21,191 nt of DNA from Syncephalis plumigaleata (Eukaryota > Zoopagomycota > Zoopagomycetes > Zoopagales > Piptocephalidaceae). This document shows positions 180 through 17,799 of this stretch, piece after piece. Numbering within the stretch: the stretch's first letter is position 1; the number at the start of each line of letters is the position of its first letter. The DNA is taken from NCBI GenBank assembly GCA_025201365.1, contig JAIXMF010000244.1, positions 1 to 21,191 of the forward strand, in the 5' to 3' direction. The translations under genes and the position numbers were made by a program. A model generated the notes under the pieces. That model saw only the letters and a program-made list of their open reading frames with translations, did not search any database and was not told where the DNA came from.

Positions 180-423
180 ACAACAAGTATCTACTTTCCC
201 TATACCATTACATCCAATATCATTCCGTCTTACCAAGTCAAATAAATAGCAATTTACTACATTATAATTATTACAAAAGCAGGAGTGACTATTTCATTTA
301 TACATGATTAATCGTGTTCATTATATGACTGCGTATACGGTATCTTAGTACAGGGTTTTCCAAACCAGTTGACATTGTTAACCTTTAACCTTAGCTTTCA
401 TTAATAAATGTGTAGAATTTTGT

Positions 424-590
424 ATTTGTTTGTATTCTGTAAACATATGTGCTCCTTCGCTCTATTCACTCCTACTGCTATCCATCCTATTTGTCCCTCT
501 GCTTCCATTCTCATTCAGCTAATAAACACCGTATCAACTTCATACATATCGCTGTATTCTCTACGCTCTATTGAACATACTTTGCTTTCA
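424..590 (+). repeat. Left arm of a long inverted repeat
   Basis: The segment from about 424 to 590 is found again as its reverse complement at about 1370-1548. The shared core begins GTATTCTGTAAACATATG and ends near ACTTTGCTTTCAACCA. By eye, about 155 aligned bases differ at roughly seven positions, mostly transitions, so identity is about 95%. The arms are separated by about 0.78 kb. Similarity fades into unrelated sequence at both ends, so the boundaries are accurate only to about 10 bases. It could be a fold-back element, an inverted duplication of a 3' untranslated region, or the termini of a non-autonomous element. Confidence 0.8.
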
Positions 591-1369
591 ACCAATATAG
601 CTATGTCAGTAAGCAAGCATTCGCCATTCATAATTATCGGTTAGCATTTGTCATTCTGTATAGTCATTGTATATCTAGTTGTATACACGTAGTCAAGTCC
701 ATTGCTGACTATACTCCTAATGACGAGCACATCGTATTGCAGCAGTACATTTAAAAGCTAGAATATTATTGTATCGAAATAGTGAATATGTTTTACTGTT
801 GATGAAATCATTAGATCATACAGCGATATCAGTAGTTGTATGGTCATGCTGTGCGAGTGCCATCACATTCTCATTGTCTATATGATTGCTAATTGATTCA
901 ATGACAGATTAGTATTTTAGTAGAATAAATCAGATATTGCTCGATACTTACCGTATACTAATAGTGTATCGATTATAACTAGAAATGTCTAAGCTAATAG
1001 ACGTACATACCATTGATTAATAAAGACAATTACACGATCCAACTATGATGGCAATGACCATTAAACCATTGCTTCTATTTGTAAACTATGCTGTCATTCA
1101 GTTATAGTTCGTGATTCAAGTATTAGGTAGTAGTAGTGTATTCATGTCAATGCACGCACGATCACGTCAGATGATCAGTATCTATTGTGTTGTTCGATGA
1201 TTTGCTATACAATTCACTACAATGACTACAGGTAAATATACATCAGTTGATATTAATGCATAATCAGTGAGTGGATGAGTGATATATTCTAGTTGACTGT
1301 ATACTGCTGATAACTGAATATGAATGATAGGAATAGCAGTGGTAGTAGTAGTAGTAGCAGCTAGTTGTA

Positions 1370-1548
1370 CTGGTTGAAAGCAAAGTATGTTCAATAGAGT
1401 GTAGAGAATACAACGATATGTATGAAGTTGATACGGTGTTTATTGGCTGAATGAGAATAGAAGCAGAAGGACAAGTAGTATGGATAGCAGTAGGAGTGAA
1501 TAGAGCGAAGGAGCACATATGTTTACAGAATACATACAAATAAACAAA
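1370..1548 (-). repeat. Right arm of a long inverted repeat
   Basis: Reverse-complement partner of the 424-590 arm. It includes the same 45-base block around the CATATG and CTCCTTCGCTC words without a difference. Beyond the arm the sequence passes into a purine-rich low-complexity stretch and then the retrotransposon relic at 1854. Confidence 0.8.
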
Positions 1549-1853
1549 TAAATAAACAGAGTTGATACAACAAGGAAGAGCAGCAGCAGTAGCAGCTAGT
1601 GAATAGAGCGAATAACGCGTATACACCACTTACCGAGTAGATTACAAATAAACAATAGAGATACAAGTGTATGAATAGAGTAGTAGACGAGTAAGCGAAC
1701 AGAGAAAAGAATAGATAGCAGGAGAGTAGTGGTATGAGTATGGTAAGAATAAACGAGCAATTGCAGTGAATAGTACTGACAGGTAAAGAGAGTAAGAGGA
1801 GTATACTGATATACGTAGAACATAGAGGGATGAGCAGTGAGATTAGTGAATAA

Positions 1854-2123
1854 AGATTTATCAATGATTTCATTCAAATTGTCGTCACTCTACGATATAA
1901 TCCACAGCCTCTTAATGCAAGTATCATTAATCATATTACAGTCGTTAACGCACTCTGGGCAATCCATCGTACACGAATGGCGAGTATATATGGCGACAAC
2001 CCAACTGATCATACAAACATCTTTTATATATGGCAATCCATACTTAAAAACATCATATACGCTAAACGCCGTACGGCAATTGTACAACCCTCTCTTCAAT
2101 CCTTCTACCAGAAATGGCAATAG
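1854..2123 (+). mobile_element. Relic of a non-LTR (LINE-type) retrotransposon, C-terminal end of ORF2
   Basis: The frame between an in-frame TAA at 1851 and TAG at 2121-2123 has no ATG near its beginning. It reads as 89 residues of protein-like sequence including INHITVVNALWAIHRTRMA, then FYIWQSILKNIIYAKRR, ending SFYQKW. The pattern ALWxIHRxR, then a W-containing helix and a basic segment, resembles the region after the reverse transcriptase and zinc-binding domain at the end of LINE ORF2 proteins. The reverse transcriptase, endonuclease and a clear poly(A) tail are absent, so this would be a dead, 5'-truncated copy. Family assignment is from pattern recognition only. A 76-residue antisense frame (2120-1890) is taken to be its shadow. 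Confidence 0.45.
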
Positions 2124-2456
2124 TTATCCAGTTACCTAAGAATGGACTTCATAAACATCTCTATTGATTAACATTGAATTTTGTTATCTTTATTCACAGT
2201 AATCAATAAACACTTCACAAATATCTCCATACAATTACTGTTACAATGCTAAATACATACATATATACATACATAGGATATCTGCATGTTAGTATACTAG
2301 ATAAAAGCATAGTCAAGATTTTCTTTGCTTTGAACTTCTTTTAGACTAGCAGCTATTCCCGCCATTTCAATGGTCACAAATCACGTGGAGACATAGAATA
2401 AATACGTAAGCCCTAATTTGTATTTGCATTATTTATTCTTTTTTTACTTATACAAT
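2124..2456. other. Spacer and probable 5' region of the RBR gene
   Basis: AT-rich, with a short ACATAC/TATAC repeat near 2255-2275. The proximal 100 bases carry the TTCCCGCC and CACGTG words listed separately. A T-rich stretch (about 2430-2450) directly precedes the ATG at 2457. No gene is seen here. Confidence 0.5.
2356..2387 (+). promoter_or_regulatory. Possible promoter elements: TTCCCGCC (E2F/MBF-like) and CACGTG E-box
   Basis: TTCCCGCC at 2356-2363 and the palindromic E-box CACGTG at 2382-2387 lie 70-100 bases upstream of the RBR start codon. Both are recognised classes of fungal and eukaryotic transcription-factor site, but they are short and could occur by chance. No TATA box is evident. 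Confidence 0.3.
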
Positions 2457-4485
2457 ATGGCTGCTGCTAAACAGAAAGGAAAGGGAGTTTTGCAAACTAT
2501 TGCTAATTGCAGTGACGAGGAAGAGAACACTGTCTCTCGTGTAGGCTTCCTTAAATTTATTGGCGTTCAACCGCAGCCAAAGCCGGTGTCTTTTGAATGT
2601 GGCATTTGCTACAACAAATTCATAACTGCCACGACTAATGCTGGTAGTAGTCGTGGACCGGTACATGGCCAGTTCCTCAGTTGTAGACATGGCTATTGCG
2701 ACACATGTATGAACAAGTATGTTACGACCAAACTACACGACGGAACCAACCCTTTTCCTTTGCACTGTCCAGTTCCAGAGTGTCAGTATGAAATAACGGA
2801 AAAGCATGTGCAATCACTACTCACCGCAAAAGACTACGATTTATGGAAGCGTAAGAAAGAGGAAAGCAACATGAATGGAAAGGTAAGCTGGTTTATAGTA
2901 GATATGTATATGAGGATATCTAGTAGACTAATGAATGATGAACTCACTAGATGTATTGTCCCAACAAACGATGCAGTAAAGTGTTGACTATATACCAGTT
3001 GTCACGGGCCAATGACTGCTTGGCCGAATGCACCCATTGCCATTATGCAATCTGTACTAAATGCACATGTCTATGGCATAATGGTAGGATAGTTATACTA
3101 GATGTGAAGCATACTGATATTAACTACTACTATTGCTACGATGATGATAATAGGCTATTCGTGTGCTCAGTATAAAGCAATACCCGATGCACGGAAAAAC
3201 ACCGAAGACAGCAGCGTATTAGCAATGGCCAAGGATAACAAATGGTGTCGATGCACAAAGTGTCAAGCACTAGTAGAGCTGAGATACGGCTGTAATCATA
3301 TCACTTGTCATTGCGGTCATCAATTGTAAGTAGTGGCGATGAATATAGTTGTGCATCAAGAAGTTATAACTAACACTGATACGACACAGTTGCTATAAAT
3401 GCAGTTCATCATGGAATGAAACAACAAGGCTATGCAGTACAGGCAAATGTAATCTATGGGATGAAGACATGTTGATATTGGCACAGAATGATCGAGAAGC
3501 ACAACAAGTACAGCCAGTGCAGCCAGTACAAGTACAGCCAGCACAATGGCGACCAGTACCACCAGTACAAGTACAGCCGCAGAATCAACGACCAGGAGTA
3601 CAGAAAGCTCGTGAAATCAATATAAACTTCCACAACCTCCTCCGGATTCCGGAATATAGGCACCCACCATGGATTTATGAGAGTTTGCATACTTCCAGCT
3701 GCATGTATTGTCCTGCTACATTTGCTAATATTGACCAGCTCAAACAACATTTGGAAACTGTTAAGCACCATGATGTTTATTACTGTTGCGGTAAACTATT
3801 TCAAACCAAACATTCACTTACACGACACCGACACTCTTCAAATTGTCAACTAGAAGATGATAATCATGATCTTGAATACGAAGAATACTACGAAAAAGAC
3901 TACTCCGAAGAAGAAGACTGTTACGAAGAAGAAGAAGAGTTGATCGGGAGTGACTTTATATTATGCAATCTCAACATCTATAGAGTATTGAGAAGATTGG
4001 CTGCAACCCGATCTTTAAATATGGCGCGCAGTATATTAGATAGGCGATGTTATTACTGTCATAGACAGTTTAGTGATGACGATAAGCTGCAATATCACTA
4101 CCGTAATACAGTTATGCATCCAGTTTACTATTGTTGCGGCCTCTTATTTGAGGGTGAGGATGGATTTGATGAGCATCAAGGCCGTTCATTATGCCATAAT
4201 AATTACTCTAAAGTCTTTAATGGAGCTCAAAGAGAAAAGATCAAAAAGCACAATTTCAATATTGATTTGGACGAGGTTATGGCTTGTCCAGATAAGAACA
4301 CAAATAGGAAATTTAAGGAGTGCCTAAAATATACTATGTGTTATTATTGCTATGATGCATTTGAAAGTCACTATGATCTTGAGGATCATTACGAGAAAGC
4401 CACTCATGATGTATTTACATGCTGTGGAATGATATTTAAAAATCGTCTCGGCATGAAAGTTCATCAGGTTGGTGCAGATTGCTAA
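2457..4485 (+). CDS. RBR (RING-IBR-RING2) E3 ubiquitin ligase with three C-terminal paired zinc-finger modules
   Basis: Four exons give a 608-residue protein: 2457-2882, 2951-3083, 3154-3325 and 3390-4485. The introns (64-70 bp) are GTAAGC..TAG, GTAGGA..TAG and GTAAGT..CAG, and all phases fit. RING1 uses C48, C51, C76, H78, C81, C84, C104 and C109. The IBR has ideal spacing (C145, C150, C169, C172, C177, C180, H185, C190). RING2 (about 218-248) contains YGCNH, so the thioester-forming Cys expected of RBR ligases is C233. A Gln/Pro/Val-rich linker (about 283-312) follows, then three modules at 348-396, 464-512 and 561-608 with the pattern CxxC-x12-H-x(5,6)-H-x(4,5)-CCG-x12-H-x5-C. An acidic stretch (about 400-430) separates modules 1 and 2. 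Expected role is ubiquitin transfer through a Cys intermediate; substrates are unknown. The ATG at 2457 is chosen because the upstream extension lacks an ATG. AATAAA overlaps the stop codon. Confidence 0.9.
3505..3590 (+). repeat. Degenerate VQP-coding repeat in the RBR gene linker
   Basis: Imperfect repeats of CAGCCAGTRCA/GTACAAGTACAGCC encode a Val-Gln-Pro-rich linker between RING2 and the first zinc-finger module. It is probably a flexible spacer. Confidence 0.6.
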
Positions 4486-4823
4486 TAAATAATACGCGTT
4501 GTAAAAGTGCTTAGAATACGATGTGTGACTATGCTGTAATGTTTGCACTAAATATCATGGTTATAACATTAGTAGGATTGTTTATTAGATAGATATCAAT
4601 AATGGCTTATTAGGAATAGGAATGGTGCCATTGTAATTGTTATCATTATTTGGTAGTCATTGATTTGAACCATTCATTTACCATCAAGTCGTTTACAAAT
4701 GCAATAATAATGCTTTATCTTAAAAAAAACAGCGATGCTAAGTAATATGCAACATTATTTATTAATAAGAACAAAAGTCAAAGACTAACAATGCTAACTG
4801 GTTGGAAAAATATGTACAACGGT
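4486..4823. other. Convergent 3' spacer
   Basis: This separates the stops of the + strand RBR gene and the - strand F-box gene. It is AT-rich. TTTATT at 4758-4763 is an AATAAA on the minus strand, about 60 bases after the F-box stop. A run of eight A lies near 4722-4730. No gene is seen. Confidence 0.5.
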
Positions 4824-6653
4824 TTATTCATTTGTAGTGGCTGGTTTCAACGTGTACAAGTCCTCATTAGTAACGACGAGTAGTTCACGGTTAAGTTGCG
4901 TAATATTATGACTATTAGTAACGATATCGGAATGGTAGATGATCTCACCATTATTCAAATTATAGCTTGACAGCGAGTTTCTAAATACACCATCATGTGC
5001 TTTATAATTGACGGCAAACAGTAAATGACCAATGGCACGCAAATAGTAGATTCTACCGGGATATGGTCCATGCTGTTGCACCTTACATAGCGATACCAGG
5101 TTCTTATCGTTACTGTTCGCTTTGTTTACAAATCGTTCACCGTTGGCATACGTTACAGCCGAGATGGAATCGGTTGCACGCTCGAGTGACGGGAATGTAA
5201 ACGGTCGAATCGGCAACGTGAGATCACACATACCAAGTTGATGCTGTTGATTGTAATAGCCGAACCCGACCGATGTAACAATAATACGTAGTCGCTGCAG
5301 TTTCTTATTCAGTTCATGCGTGGTTAAATCGCTAAATGGATCATTCGGCAAGTGTTCAGTGATATTGCTCAAAGCTATTCGATCGAAATAGAATCCCTCC
5401 TCTGGTAGTATTCTTATTAGTTCCTGGCCATCGATAGTGGACCACACCGCCAGATACAAGTGTTTATCGAGCGTGATGGCAATCTCGGGGAAGCAAGGAT
5501 CCACATAGGTGACATACGTGTTATACTCTAAATAGATGGTAACCGTACGACTAGTGGTAATATCATGACGTATCACTATACCGCGTTCCGCGCCACCCCT
5601 CTCTATACCCGCGATGATAACCTCCGGCTGGATGTTCAAGCTCTTTTGCCGTTGATACCAACTCGGCAGCACGTAGACTTGACGCCCGACCAGTCCCACT
5701 TCGAGGGTGAACTCGCTCAATAGACGTTTTGGCTTAGTGGCTATATCGTACACGCGTAGTACCTGCCAGATACCGTCCCAATTGGTCAGGGTGGTGACCA
5801 TTAATTTGGCCCACCAGTTAATCTCCAAAAGATGTTCCTGATGCATGCTATCATCCGGACGTAGGATGTCCTCGTAGACGATTTCATGCTCCGGGAAGGA
5901 CCACGCCCTCACCACGCTGTTGGGCTGTCCCTCAAGATAAACGCCATTGCTAACGATGCCCTGATCTGGCGAAGTGTAATCCGCGATGAGAAATCGAGAG
6001 AATTTGAAGTTATGTCTTTCATCCAGCGGTGTATCCGTCAATGAGAAGGCCTCGGTAATTAAAGGATCAAACGCGGACAATTCCGATAAACGCCACAGAT
6101 ACGTCTTATGTGAGTTATCTATGGACATTGTCACTTGCTGATTGTCACTGTTCTCGTTACTGCCATTGTTATTATTATTATCAATATCTTCATCAATGAG
6201 CACGTTGTTATTGTTGTCTTCAATGTCGCTTTGCTGCTCTAATGCACTTAGACGGCTGCTACGTCTCCAGTAATTCTCGAATTCTATCTCCCATTCCAGT
6301 AGTTTTCGCCACTCGCTAGGATTCTTATCGGTAAACTCTACATGACGACTCCAAACAGGATAGCGCGAGCAATAGGCGGTATACCATATGCTATTTTCAT
6401 TACATAACCTATCGGGACAACCAGTTAGTCGTTATCAACAATTCAAGCGTACCAATGATAAGTGCAATAGTTACTGGTAAAAACGGTGGCAACTTGTACG
6501 CACGTTCAGCAGCGTATTTATATCTCGAGCCGTGACACACACGAATATACGTAGCCATATCTCGTCCGGTACATTTACACTGTTCCGTTTTAGCGAATTA
6601 GTTGACATTTCAGTTGTTAGCGTGAATTCAGAAGACATATTGTAGGATAACAA
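4824..6653 (-). CDS. F-box protein with a large C-terminal domain, possibly a beta-propeller
   Basis: Two exons (6653-6475 and 6408-4824) flank a 66-bp intron (GTAACT..GATAG, with a CTAAC branch site), giving about 587 residues. Residues 27-62 (VPDEIWLRIF, then TARDINTLLNVRTSCHRFYQ) are a typical F-box, the Skp1-binding motif of SCF ubiquitin ligases. The intron splits the last F-box codon. A W-rich segment (NPSEWRKLLEWEIEF) and an Asn/Asp-rich linker follow (about 122-150). The remaining 430 residues show repeated beta-strand-like stretches resembling an irregular propeller, but no canonical WD motif was found, so this part is unassigned. Start ATG at 6653; a second in-frame ATG at 6638 is equally possible. 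Likely role is substrate recognition in an SCF complex. Confidence 0.85.
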
Positions 6654-7170
6654 TACAAGCGAGAATGAACAAGAGAGTAATGACGAGAAACCTTGTGAGG
6701 TTGATGGATAGATAGATAAATCGGTTACGCCGTGCCACTTGTAAATCCATGTGACCTTTCAAAAAGATCATTAACTCTTACTGAATCATGATGACTTGTC
6801 ATTTAAGCAATTCCACATTATAACTTATAATGGCAATATCCTTATCCACTTGCTTTTTTATTTATCAATGTCAACATCCAAGTATACGCTTCATTTGAAT
6901 GTTATAACAGGTATTGCATAGAATATACTCATTATGACATTGTTGTTTAATCCAAGATAAATAAATAAATAATAGCGATAACTTTGATTGACAGGCTTGG
7001 TTATTGTTATAACAACAAATACGCCTATCCTACACACATATATAGGTGGCACATACTCTTGTATAAACTTGTAACATCATTGTTTATTATGCAACAGCTA
7101 GAATCTGTTTGATAATTCCTTACTATTATTATCGTACTCCGTATGCTACTTTATGTCATGCTATATTTAC

Positions 7171-9723: not shown

Positions 9724-9922
9724 GAGTGGGTCTAGCCCCAGCCAGAATGCGGATCGGCCGCATACTGGCTCCTCCCACTCCTCGCCGAGTGAACCTACTT
9801 CCTGGGACTCCATCAACAAGGCAGTATTCCGAACGGAGTATTACCTCAAGATGGTAGCCCCCTCGTGGAGCCTTTAGGGCCGGCCCACGTAAAGACGTGG
9901 CGGCCTAACTCGAATCATTTTT
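9724..9922 (+). ncRNA. Candidate structured RNA segment with three hairpins and a terminal T5
   Basis: On the + strand three helices can be paired by eye. First, GAGTGGG (9724-9730) pairs with CCCACTC (9774-9780), enclosing GCCAG/CTGGC and ATGCGG/CCGCAT around a 5-base loop. Second, AGTATTCC (9823-9830) pairs with GGAGTATT (9835-9842) around GAAC, using two G-U pairs. Third, CCACGT (9885-9890) pairs with ACGTGG (9895-9900) around AAAG, with an outer TTA-GGCC/GGCC-TAA helix ending at 9908. TTTTT follows at 9918-9922. No known RNA family is recognised. Structure could also reflect the element's origin. Confidence 0.25.
9725..9877 (+). CDS. Possible exon or LINE ORF remnant (50 codons)
   Basis: After the AG of AAATAG (9723-9724) the frame is open for 50 codons to TAG 9875-9877. 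It contains SSHSSPSEPTSWDSINKAVF and ends in MVAPSWSL. G+C is higher than in the surrounding spacer. It is exactly in phase with a GTGAGT donor at 9466, so it could be exon 2 of the 8968 gene through a 259-bp intron. It also lies almost wholly inside the retroposon-like segment and could be a relic of that element's ORF. The two readings conflict and neither is proven. Confidence 0.3.
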   Translation, partial: SGSSPSQNADRPHTGSSHSSPSEPTSWDSINKAVFRTEYYLKMVAPSWSL

Positions 9923-10051
9923 ACACAATAATTTGAGAATGCAGTTAACTTTATTCATTTAATTATTAACAGCAGCGGCCCACTTGCTTTTAAAAATAAA
10001 AATAAAAAATAGAGTGGGTCTAGCCTAACTAATAGGAAATGGCGAACCAGT

Positions 10052-14567: not shown

Positions 14568-15197
14568 TTATGATTGCACACTTAGTCGTTGACCAGAACT
14601 ACATTGATTATCGTTGGTGTCCATGTTGTAGTGACCATTGTTTGGTGATATTACCATATCAATCAGGTAAATGGTCGTATTCTTAACCTTAATCGGTGGA
14701 CGTAGAATACGAGCACAATTCACTCGTGGTGTATTGCTTCGATTATGTACGACCAATGGTGAACTGAACGGTGTGAGGATGGCCGACTGATAACTCTGCA
14801 AATCATTGCTACGAACATGCGTATAATCAATTTGTTCACCAATGATAATGTGATGGCGTAGGATGTCGATTTGATCCTCATTCTTATCCGGCCATGGAAA
14901 CCCGTTTACCGCATCATTACTAGGTACGAAGATGGTGGCAGGACCATCATCTAGGATATACGCTAAGGAGCGATCATATTGACTGTGCTTGTTGAATAGA
15001 TTGTAATAGCCGGTGGCACCAATATTCCATCGAATGGTCTCGAGTACAGAAGCAGTTTGAGTGTTGGTGTTAGCACGAGGTACAATGGATTTACCACCAG
15101 GCGTTGGACGAGCCGCAATACATGTAGATTCAATCATGATCATAGTAATGACGACAAATATGGCCGATAGGTTTGTTATACGTGTACTAAACCACAT
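14568..15197 (-). CDS. Secreted protein with one fasciclin (FAS1) domain
   Basis: ATG at 15197 gives 209 residues; the longer open frame to 15287 begins with TTG and is rejected. Residues 1-29 (MWFSTRITN, then a hydrophobic core LSAIFVVITMIMI, then CIAA) are a signal peptide. The FAS1 domain runs from about residue 50 to the C-terminal region. ASVLETIRWN opens it, PATIFVPSNDAV is the conserved H1 motif, and the LRHHIIIGEQ segment with the later TIYLIDMVISP matches the H2 region. NRS and NTT are potential N-glycosylation sites. FAS1 proteins act in cell-surface adhesion or matrix contact. No GPI-anchor signal is obvious at the C-terminus, so it is probably secreted or wall-bound. A TATA-like element lies about 170 bases upstream. 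Confidence 0.82.
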   Translation of the reverse strand: MWFSTRITNLSAIFVVITMIMIESTCIAARPTPGGKSIVPRANTNTQTASVLETIRWNIGATGYYNLFNKHSQYDRSLAYILDDGPATIFVPSNDAVNGFPWPDKNEDQIDILRHHIIIGEQIDYTHVRSNDLQSYQSAILTPFSSPLVVHNRSNTPRVNCARILRPPIKVKNTTIYLIDMVISPNNGHYNMDTNDNQCSSGQRLSVQS

Positions 15198-15364
15198 TTT
15201 AAGAATGTAACACTGCAATGTAATAGCTATAAAAATATTGATGATGCTGTTGTTGTTGAAGGTGTTGCTACTGTGGCAATAATGCAAAGAAATAACTTAA
15301 TGCTAACTGATGAATCAAGAGAAATAACACGATATTGCTTATGATAAATGATCAGTCATGCGGA

Positions 15365-15376
15365 TTATATATATAA
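15365..15376 (-). promoter_or_regulatory. TATA-like element upstream of the fasciclin gene
   Basis: TTATATATATAA, about 170 bases before the minus-strand ATG at 15197. AT-rich context makes chance occurrence possible. Confidence 0.3.
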
Positions 15377-15476
15377 GTATACGTGTATATGATTGACAGT
15401 GTAAACAGGATTGACTAGCTGTGGGACAGAGTGTTGTGCCAGTTTACTGGTTATACCACTTACTCCGTAACGAGTC

Positions 15477-15854
15477 ATGCCATTTCCAAGTTTAGCACTA
15501 TTTCTACTATTATTGTATAGGTTGCAATGTTCCATCTTCGTATCAGATTTATATTTAGTGATCTCGCTTGAGATTTACCGGTTATATGATACGCACGGAG
15601 GAAACATCATGGTCATGATCATCATCATTGCTATCGTTACTATTATCATATACATCGCGCTATGTTTCCAATACTATCCCCCTTGTCTATCCATTGCCGC
15701 CGAAATAGACTCTTAATATAGCATTGCTCGCTGGTTTTACGATGGTACATTGCGGCAAACAAGTATTCGACAACAATATCCATTCAGGCAAACATACCTG
15801 ATCTACTATAATGACCGTCATTATAGTATTACAAAGGTAAATCGATTCTATTAA
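15477..15854 (+). pseudogene. Possible small membrane protein interrupted by an in-frame stop
   Basis: ATG at 15477 opens a 79-residue frame with two hydrophobic stretches (residues 4-14, and MVMIIIIAIVTIIIYIALCF around 46-65), ending TAA 15714-15716. The same frame then continues for about 45 codons (15717-15854). That part reads IARWFYDGTLRQTSIRQQYP, then QTYLIYYNDRHYSITK, which looks like real protein. The pattern of a membrane segment followed by YP-x3-TY-x2-YYN resembles small DUF3592-like membrane proteins. No plausible intron removes the TAA in phase. It may be a pseudogene, a sequencing error, read-through, or two unrelated stretches. Confidence 0.3.
15804..15828. repeat. Perfect 25-base palindrome
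   Basis: Arms TACTATAATGAC (15804-15815) and GTCATTATAGTA (15817-15828) are exact reverse complements around one C. It lies about 610 bases upstream of the fasciclin start codon and within the possible coding stretch 15717-15854, so coding coincidence cannot be excluded. Confidence 0.7.
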
Positions 15855-16004
15855 TAACATCGCATGCTAGATCTATATACTCGCAGCAAGAATAAACAAC
15901 ATGTGTATACCACCACCTTCTCCTTTACTTTATAACAACTCTATAATAATGGCACGAATGTATATATATTCTTTATTAGATAATAGTAATAATAATGACG
16001 ATGA

Positions 16005-17154
16005 TCAAGTATGTTTACTAGTCGATGACAAACGACGATGTCCCCTCGATGGTAATAATGCCATCTTCCTCGATGTATTACGATTATGTGACGGCAATCG
16101 TCGTATCTTAATGGCACTAGCTCGTAGATCCTCACTAGGAGTAGTGGAATTATCGGCGGTTGCCAGTATTTGAATACCACTTGATCCTAGAGTGATATTA
16201 CCCTTGAGGTTCAATTGTCCTCGTCGTAGTAACTCGCGAAGATCGTGTACTCTATCTGCCGACGCAGGCCACACACTATCGGGGAAGCAGCACAGCATTT
16301 GGCCGCGTGTCACCAAGAATCGATCTAGCCATTGGGTTTCCGTTTCGTTGGCATGTCGTGCACCGGTCAGCGTAATCACCCGTTGTAGATCGATATTATC
16401 CTCGGTGACCGCGTAACCATGCTGTACCACGGTGTCATAGAAGATCGCCTGACCGAGCGGTGTGGTCACTCCGTGTTTGTGTGCAAATTTAAGAGCCGGC
16501 ACCAAATAGTGCTCCTCGTTAATACTGTCTTGAATGTGGCGGAATAGCTTGGTGTCCTGTTGATCGGCCATGGTCCACGCCGCAGGAAATCCCTCCAGAT
16601 GCTGAATGCTCTCCTTGCCATTCATGTCGCAATTCGGTAGGGCGGCAAGTCGACGTAACTCGGGCAAGTAGCGTGCGAGTGCCGTGTTGTTACTACCGCG
16701 TTGTTGCACGTATCGTTCCACCACCCATAACGCGTCACCCGTGCCTGTGGTAAACCCGATACGACCACAAGTGTAGCCACGTCCATCGTCCAGGTGTTCA
16801 CACTTGCCATAAGCGTATTCGGGCGTACCATTCTCGAAGGTGTTTGTGATACCCTCGATAATACGACGAATCATCGGTGATAATGATGCATGTGACATAT
16901 TCGCCAATGCAGGATCCGGTGAAGGGAAACTGAGCTCGGTTAGATTGGCGGGCGGACTAGCCACGCACGGTTCATCCTTGCCAGTATTCGTGTGTACATA
17001 GGAGAACTCGAATCGTGCACATTTCGGTATACTTGTAATGGAGAATTCCGGACCACAGAATTGCGATAAATTACGCGGACGTACAATGGTGGTATGTATG
17101 GGTGGTTTCGACATTTTACTTGTAAACGGTTTAGCTGGTCTTTTCGATGATAAC

Positions 17155-17188
<34 letters not shown>

Positions 17189-17357
17189 GCTTCGTCGAGT
17201 GAAGTGAAGCGACATAAGGTTTAGGGGTTGGTTTGCTATGTCGTGTTAATGAATGAGGAACACGATGTTGATGTTCAATGGCAAGTGTATGAAATGATAA
17301 TAAATGTAAGGATACCACTACCAATGGCAGTATCAGTAATCTATTCATCATTATCAT
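16005..17357 (-). CDS. Secreted GH46-type chitosanase
   Basis: A single exon of 450 residues. The ATG at 17357 begins MIMMNRLL; a start at Met4 is equally possible. A signal peptide (about 1-26, ending LSFHTLA) is followed by a Pro/Lys/Ser-rich linker with 11 consecutive Ser. The catalytic domain spans about 155-395. The GH46 signature is recognisable: TFENGTPEYAYG gives the candidate acid E175, and HLDDGRGYTCGRIGFTTGTG gives the candidate base D191. Later motifs (ARYLPELRRL, LGQAIFYDTVVQHG, WLDRFLVTRGQML) fit the family. E175 and D191 are 16 apart, against 18 for the catalytic pair of Streptomyces N174 (E22 and D40). The last 55 residues are a basic tail. It should hydrolyse chitosan outside the cell. 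GH46 is best known in bacteria. Confidence 0.85.
17155..17188 (-). repeat. (ATC)11 microsatellite encoding polySer
   Basis: Eleven GAT units on the + strand encode 11 Ser (TCA/TCG) in the linker of the chitosanase. Its length is likely polymorphic. Confidence 0.9.
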
Positions 17358-17799
17358 ATGTAATAGTAGTAGTAATAATTATTATAATAAATGGTTAAAC
17401 AATACAGATATCTAAACAAGAAAGCGTTAATCGAGAATAACATACATGAACAAAAAAAAACAAGGAGCATGTCACATTTATTTCTATTGTTTCTATTGGA
17501 GATCAATCAAATATTGTTATCGTTGTTGTTACTATTGTTATTATTATCATTTATCGTCACCACGACACAGACCAATATATCGATAATGACATTGTAGTCC
17601 AATGAAATTAAAAAGAAGAACATAAAAAAAGGGGGAATAGGAGAGAGGCGAGCTATGCATGTAATTCGCTGTAACTGTGAATGAATGAAAGAAAGAGTGT
17701 AGCATAAGATGTCACAATGGCGTAGTTTGGTAGTATGTGGTTAATGTGCTGGTTTTCATGGTAACATTAATATGCCATCAGTTAATTAGCATTATTTCT
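17358..17799. other. Spacer: chitosanase promoter and helicase 3' end
   Basis: AT-rich with A9 and TTATTG-type repeats (about 17500-17550). The + strand frame 17391-17597 is a low-complexity Leu run and is not supported. No RNA gene is seen. Confidence 0.5.

Follow-up and report, generated by a model that had tools for sequence, protein, structure and literature searches.

RBR-type E3 ubiquitin ligases such as ARIH1 and RNF216 carry a RING1-IBR-RING2 module with a catalytic cysteine. The ligase family of the fungus Syncephalis plumigaleata described here has the same module and the same cysteine, but compared with these two proteins it is without a match to the Ariadne domain and carries paired C2H2 zinc-finger units at its C-terminus instead. 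E3 domains combined with C2H2 fingers that serve recognition are known from ZNF598/Hel2 and RNF114, which in this respect resemble our family, but these proteins have a single RING and not an RBR, and we know of no report that treats them as hypervariable families.

Further parallels can be drawn from accessible sections of the papers cited here. In Arabidopsis ARI12, serine replaces the catalytic cysteine of RING2, and monoubiquitination in vitro has been reported for this protein (PMC4503874). A more distant, four-unit relative of our family also has serine at this position, but ARI12 is a plant Ariadne protein, and the sections in question do not mention such zinc-finger units (PMC4503874). 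The ARI1 ligases of Caenorhabditis are, like the family here, a recent RBR expansion, in their case lineage-specific; they differ in being of the Ariadne type and in having a germline function, and zinc-finger arrays are not mentioned in those sections (PMC6288150). In fungi, the NLR genes het-d and het-e of Podospora show concerted evolution, hypervariable sites in the repeats of the sensor and reported diversifying selection (PMC12222747). They parallel our family as fungal genes that combine concerted evolution with hypervariable sensor repeats (PMC12222747; PMC10197012), but their sensor is of the WD40 type, they are not ubiquitin ligases, and diversifying selection is reported for them only (PMC12222747). 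HET-domain genes have also been described as hypervariable and long-diverged (PMC10197012). The ZAD-ZNF genes of Drosophila are evolutionarily dynamic zinc-finger proteins as well, but they are transcription factors with a ZAD domain and no ligase (PMC7655104).

Among the matches listed in a search of the open-licence literature, no description of an RBR ligase with a C2H2 array was found in the accessible sections. In these, the term "IBR" is absent from PMC8778642, PMC2904391 mentions fungi once, as future work, and "RING", "RBR" and "zinc finger" are absent from PMC9815663.

Results

Gene structure and the RBR module

The window, by which we mean the whole stretch of 21,191 nucleotides analysed here, is contig C162 of a 32.6-Mb assembly, whose four Chitin_synth_1 matches point to a fungus, and holds a four-exon gene on the + strand (2457-4485) with a product of 608 amino acids. 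Exon 1 (2457..2882) runs from the ATG to a GT donor, which is the aligned boundary in ten of ten genomic copies of the gene, and encodes a 40-residue N-terminal tail, of which two sequence classes occur among the copies, followed by RING1 and the start of the IBR. Most of the IBR is encoded by exon 2 (2951..3083; CACTAG acceptor, GTAGGA donor), and the IBR end and most of RING2, including the catalytic C233, by exon 3 (3154..3325), which also has an acceptor and a donor. Exon 4 (3390..4485) is a single open frame with the last RING2 ligands, a Q/P/V-rich linker, the three paired-finger units and the stop codon. An earlier note on this DNA had proposed the four-exon model, and the alignment to the ten copies, which carries the window's boundaries with GT..AG introns of 63-76 bp throughout, bears it out. 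It had also described the gene as a fusion, and since a single open exon contains the three units together with the end of RING2, the fusion is one protein and a reading as two separate genes is ruled out.

Upstream of the gene, about 360 bp (2095..2456, + strand) are common to eight of the other nine copies, and about 250 bp of this stretch are shared with the C13 copy; 5' of it, the window has a dispersed repeat. Downstream, about 122 bp (4486..4607, + strand) are common to the ten copies, with homology beyond this point in subsets only. A search for RNA families in the window found none.

Residues ~41-270 comprise RING1, IBR and RING2, in that order. The Pfam IBR model matches residues 134-190 with 39.4 bits against a cut-off of 24.3 and exceeds its cut-off in two stretches, whereas the RING-type matches at residues 47-95 (RING1) and the IBR_1 match over RING2 stay below their own cut-offs. 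The phmmer alignment to ARIH1 spans residues 74-253, and PDB matches of the region include ARIH1 (E ~1e-9) and RNF216 (E ~1e-7). C233 lies in the motif GCNHITC, which aligns with GCNHMVC of ARIH1 and is present in ten of ten copies. The claim of a complete RING1-IBR-RING2 with C233 as catalytic cysteine is thus upheld by the ARIH1 alignment, the conserved motif and the IBR score, and the gene product is, judged by its sequence, an RBR-type E3 ubiquitin ligase that would be expected to be active. A Pfam scan of the 608-residue protein gave no match up to E 1 to an Ariadne domain after RING2, to NACHT, NB-ARC or HET domains, or to the B-box, a hallmark of TRIM E3 ligases.

The paired-finger units

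Each unit has 48-49 residues and consists of two C2H2-like fingers with the pattern C-x2-C-x12-H-x5,6-H-x4-C-C-x12-H-x5-C. The three units extend from C348 (window 3700) to C608 (window 4482), as claimed before. Unit 1 (3700..3846, + strand; residues 348-396) matches the pattern, is the most conserved of the three and is separated from unit 2 (4048..4194, + strand; residues 464-512) by an acidic spacer (3853..3948, + strand; residues 399-430) with a net charge of -17 and a length that varies among copies. Unit 3 occupies 4339..4482 (+ strand; residues 561-608). A search with C..C-x12-H-x5,6-H-x4,5-CC-x12..14-H-x5-C found three matches in the 269-residue tail and none in 100,000 shuffles of it, which rules out chance spacing of the ligands; in the six frames of the window there was no further match. 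The repeated pattern in the earlier note thus stands, but its CCG-x12-H is actually CC-x12-H (CCG-x11-H). The histidines are spaced H-x6-H in units 1 and 2 and H-x5-H in unit 3, with four residues from the second histidine to CC. A weak repeat seems to reach about 28 residues further before each unit, with no invariant column among six units.

The ligand pattern fits two zinc sites per unit, as had been proposed. The CCG, by contrast, had been taken for a turn common to both fingers, and from the alignment it reads as the adjacent cysteine pair of the second finger. Nor do the units represent a novel type of domain: their combined profile, built from the three units of the window, aligns over both fingers with classical C2H2 tandems in solved structures (best E 3.7e-14, Aart). 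According to these profiles, the units are atypical tandem C2H2/C2HC pairs and not a new fold. The 279-residue tail, when scanned alone, passes the Pfam cut-offs of zf-C2H2_4, zf-C2H2_2 and zf-C2H2, all of which stay below cut-off in the scan of the full 608-residue protein. Of 32 extracted units, 14 were scanned, and in all of them the first finger (finger A) matches zf-C2H2_4 at E up to 0.1; window unit 1 reaches 27.5 bits against 27. The spacing of finger A is that of U1/matrin-like fingers.

In the second finger (finger B), the two cysteines are adjacent in all 14 aligned units, where the classical finger has a gap of 2-4 residues, and the last ligand is cysteine. It otherwise keeps the strand-strand-helix pattern, both in the profile alignment and in an AlphaFold model of unit 1 that was made from the three window rows only (mean pLDDT 67.7). 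The whole tail folded alone reached a pLDDT of 38.7 and was unusable. None of 22 Foldseek matches of the unit 1 model was significant (best E 0.53); the top ones were zinc-finger entries, including IDD10, which we take to be one. The CWCH2 pairs of Zic, Gli and Zap1 resemble the units, according to the accessible sections of their description, in that two C2H2 fingers possibly act as one and an aromatic residue precedes the second cysteine of finger A, but in the units this residue is mostly tyrosine instead of tryptophan, and the cysteines of finger B are adjacent (PMC2837044). The tryptophan between the cysteines that serves as CWCH2 criterion is absent from 14 of 14 units, finger A having mostly tyrosine and finger B no residue at this place.

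A multigene family with intact and interrupted members

A search of the protein against the contigs of the assembly, in which the best candidates were scored, yielded at least ten gene copies: that of the window (C162), those on C68, C246, C3, C13 and C257, and four on C340 (C340a-d). Six of the ten (C162, C68, C246, C3, C340b and C340c) are open through the three units, with tyrosine instead of cysteine as the last ligand in C3. The other four are interrupted: C340a has a broken frame in exon 1, C13 has a stop after unit 2, and in C340d and C257 a long acidic Tyr/Glu/Ala-rich repeat replaces unit 1 and is followed by stops, after which units 2 and 3 are open. The stops of the latter two (C340:1114-1116k and C257:26-28k) lie at the same place after this repeat.

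A more distant relative, at C1:1020800-1024900 and with a near-identical partner on C182, encodes an RBR followed by four units. By eye, its RING2 reads GSNHITC on both contigs, and the catalytic cysteine is therefore serine.

Units without an RBR were not encountered outside the family loci, either among the 24 matches listed for the three units of the four-unit relative used as query or among the 15 listed for the window tail. A search with the zf-C2H2_2 family gave four matches in other genes, but it is a weak test because it also missed the family's own loci. Another RBR gene (C112:1135k) has no such units in the 2.3 kb examined. One scan of viral contigs for relatives gave 17 pattern matches, none of which was confirmed.

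A hypervariable island in the C-terminal half

Divergence at the DNA level was compared in all 36 pairs of nine copies, C68 being left out as an allele of the window. The median was 3.3% (2.2-6.6) in the RBR part (exons 1-3 with introns), 16.6% (2.5-22.5) in unit 2 and 23.3% (1.0-30.8) in unit 3, both with their lead-ins, and 8.2% (2.5-13.9) in the 122 bp after the stop codon. Divergence above that of the RBR was found in 35 of the 36 pairs for unit 2 and in 33 for unit 3, and divergence above that of the post-stop stretch in 34 and 32 pairs, respectively. The exception for unit 2 is the pair C3/C340c, where this unit is nearly identical (2.5%), and those for unit 3 come from the trio C340a, C340d and C257, with a nearly identical unit 3 (1.0-1.4%). 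Between C3 and C340b, unit 3 and the sequence immediately behind the stop codon are equally divergent (11.5% each). Six pairs were aligned over ~5 kb; the initial 500 bp of their 3' flanks show 3-9% divergence in five pairs and no homology in the sixth. In the four-unit relative, which served as a control, C1 and C182 are 1.5% apart in the RBR and 1.9% in the units, with 1.7-2.7% in the other segments, and there is no hypervariable island.

Across 21 pairs of seven copies, mean dS and dN are 0.071 and 0.019 in residues 41-283, as compared to 0.240 and 0.187 in residues 326-608 (with C13 only to its stop). Silent sites share in this elevation, which selection acting on amino acids therefore cannot explain by itself. 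The pattern points to homogenisation of the RBR and flanks, to units swapped in from divergent sources, or to both.

Position of the variability and tests of selection

The variability of the units is not evenly spread. Across nine copies, units 2 and 3 have invariant residues in 15 of their 16 ligand columns, the exception being the last cysteine (tyrosine in C3), and in seven of the eight columns of the linker between the fingers. Compared with other non-ligand, non-core positions, helix positions -2 to +6 vary more (permutation p 0.0006), as do the contact positions (permutation p 0.005); these p-values are optimistic, because the column tests assume independent columns while the copies are related. 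When the helix mask was shifted circularly, only the true position among 2352 reached the observed value. The effect is strong in unit 3, where the helices of both fingers vary (contact positions 1.42 bits versus 0.87 in loops), and small in unit 2 (0.79 versus 0.73 bits), where the first finger is variable mainly in its helix, from position -2 to +3, and at one loop position, and there is little variation in the second-finger helix. In unit 1, which is conserved, mean column entropy is low among the seven copies aligned there. Variability similar to that of the units is also found in the stretches that precede units 2 and 3 (0.82 and 1.00 bits).

Under codon model M0, omega was 0.33 for the RBR and 0.41, 0.77 and 0.93 for units 1, 2 and 3. 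M2a was preferred over M1a in unit 2 (p 0.005) and unit 3 (p 0.002), with no gain in unit 1. However, it was also preferred in the RBR control (p 0.0008; a set without C340a, in which conversion violates the single tree), and we therefore do not accept the M2a result as evidence for positive selection. In both M1a and M2a, 29-40% of the sites of units 2-3 are strongly constrained (omega 0.02-0.04). The dN/dS of the helices in five intact copies (C68 left out) was 0.84 with their own dS and 1.46 (95% interval 0.94-2.21) with regional dS; for nine copies, the values were 0.80 and 1.17 (0.77-1.74). The synonymous sites of the helices are also highly divergent, so that block exchange contributes. 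We thus claim diversity together with constraint for the units; positive selection is not proven.

Recombination, alleles and flanking sequences

The copies recombine with each other: in the PHI test (own implementation), none of 1000 permutations reached the observed value in either half of the gene. Examples of exchange can be seen in individual copies. Downstream of the gene, C162 and C68 are collinear at 98-99% for 8.7 kb, save for an insertion of ~275 bp in C162, and are taken as alleles. Their units are more than 99% identical, but at the very start of exon 1 they differ in 25 of 125 alignment columns. Over these 125 columns, C68 has four differences from C13, such that the start of its exon 1 reads as an ectopic conversion. 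C3 and the C340b region align collinearly (96% over 3 kb), and because of this the two look like alleles. Yet they differ by 15-16% in unit 2, as compared to 6-9% in the near flanks, and C3 differs by at most 2% from its paralogue C340c between the linker and the beginning of unit 2 (1.9% in the unit 1 segment). Segments thus appear to be exchanged between copies and alleles, in the case of C3 and C340b between apparent alleles.

A presence/absence difference was found between C246 and C212, which are collinear at 99% over 3 kb: C246 has an RBR gene that is missing at that place in C212. On either side, 147 bp and 1 kb align at 97-98%, and between them 3.9 kb of C246 lie opposite 1.2 kb of unrelated sequence in C212. 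No pair of terminal inverted repeats was found at the very ends of the 3.9-kb segment, which may nevertheless be transposon cargo. Allelism in all these cases is deduced from collinearity within one assembly, and contig errors could mimic some of the differences. As a separate observation, the 1.2-kb sequence exactly opposite the segment (C212:46000-55500, locus 5064-6255) has, by eye, matching inverted ends, ACAG...CTGT.

Of the 5' flanks, those of the window copy and of C340b were tested, and both are dispersed repeats with tens of copies. That of the window (423-1883) occurs in tens of copies at 88-95% and contains an internal inverted repeat (423-603 versus 1362-1542, 94%); at this place, the C68 contig matches the 5' flank of C340b instead. 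The ~275-bp insertion (window 9734-10010) is itself a repeat, with at least 18 near-full-length copies at 98-100% and two partial ones among the best 40 of 53 candidates in the genome. The identity of these copies and the absence from collinear C68 mark it as a recently active short element.

Discussion

How can a uniform enzyme half and such variable units be reconciled in one gene family? Our preferred reading, to which we give a probability of about one half, is that of an E3 family with a fixed enzyme half and a diversifying zinc-finger recognition arm. The N-terminal RBR would take ubiquitin from an E2 onto C233, and the C-terminal array of three two-finger units would be the arm that recruits the enzyme to a target. 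Uniformity of the enzyme half would be maintained by gene conversion, and diversity would be maintained in units 2 and 3, above all at the exposed helix positions where C2H2 fingers contact their partner; because the diversity falls on these positions, the targets that are marked probably differ among copies and alleles. Such an arrangement would fit a role against changing targets, be it non-self, a virus or mobile element, or an internal genetic conflict. The recognition role that the earlier note had suggested for the units is in our judgement their likeliest use. A more far-reaching version is tentative and, taken as a whole, rather unlikely: that of a recognition repertoire for non-self, viruses or transposons, with one RBR engine at many loci, each of them given its own zinc-finger specificity through helix blocks exchanged among paralogues and alleles.

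An alternative is relaxed constraint, i.e., a duplicated ligase family that decays in repeat-rich DNA, with drifting units and a 5' half kept alike by conversion through chance. Four of the ten copies are indeed interrupted, the omega values of units 2 and 3 (0.77 and 0.93) are high, and dispersed repeats make up the 5' flank in both copies tested. We consider this unlikely, however, since 29-40% of the sites of units 2-3 are strongly constrained and ligands and linker are kept even in the units of interrupted copies. Furthermore, drift alone leaves unexplained why the units, silent sites included, diverge more than the RBR in nearly all pairs, and also more than the post-stop stretch in 34/36 (unit 2) and 32/36 (unit 3) of them.

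The recognition arm of our preferred reading could also be directed at nucleic acid, in which case the ligase would be led, like zinc-finger proteins of the KRAB or ZAD type, to DNA or RNA, which might for example belong to mobile elements. By sequence, the nearest solved structures are C2H2 tandems such as those of Aart, ZBTB24 and PRDM9, which we take to be DNA-binding, and variability is high at the base-contact positions -1, 2, 3 and 6. In addition, half of the scanned units (7 of 14) have a match at E up to 0.1 to zf-C2H2_jaz, a finger for double-stranded RNA. The classical linker between C2H2 fingers is TGEKP, but the linkers here are of another kind, and the H-x5,6-H and CC spacings also depart from the classical finger. 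Moreover, units 2 and 3 have a net charge of -4 each and lie beside the -17 spacer, although unit 1 with its lead-in is at +2. Nucleic acid as the target seems improbable to us: the acidic units mildly favour a protein, while the variability of the contact positions fits either.

Families of selfish or incompatibility genes show presence/absence, divergent alleles, repeats in the flanks and interrupted copies. That the copies are killers, antidotes or incompatibility factors and either disarm or trigger a partner by ubiquitination would agree with the C246/C212 difference, the divergent apparent alleles, the flank repeats and the interrupted copies, but it is quite unlikely, as no linked partner gene was identified in the window, where the neighbours named by Pfam are F-box-like (below cut-off), RasGEF, fasciclin, GH46 and DEAD-box helicase genes.

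If the reading as a repertoire is true, the family would form a counterpart, based on ligases, to the NLR repertoires of fungi. If, more modestly, the units of the recognition arm set the target, the copies would be a natural set of specificities on one constant enzyme, and their natural swaps would show how finger pairs choose partners. Fungal intracellular recognition would then be testable by a simple readout, namely what is ubiquitinated. The four-unit relative offers a ready contrast, with the same architecture, no hypervariable island and an altered chemistry, i.e., serine at the catalytic position.

With respect to the surroundings of the gene, an F-box-like N-terminus (below cut-off) is found on the - strand at window 4824-6758, adjoining the RBR gene, near a 535-residue frame without a Pfam match, and the two possibly belong to one F-box gene. 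On the - strand at 14568-17378 lies a glycosyl hydrolase family 46 gene with a fasciclin-domain gene beside it.
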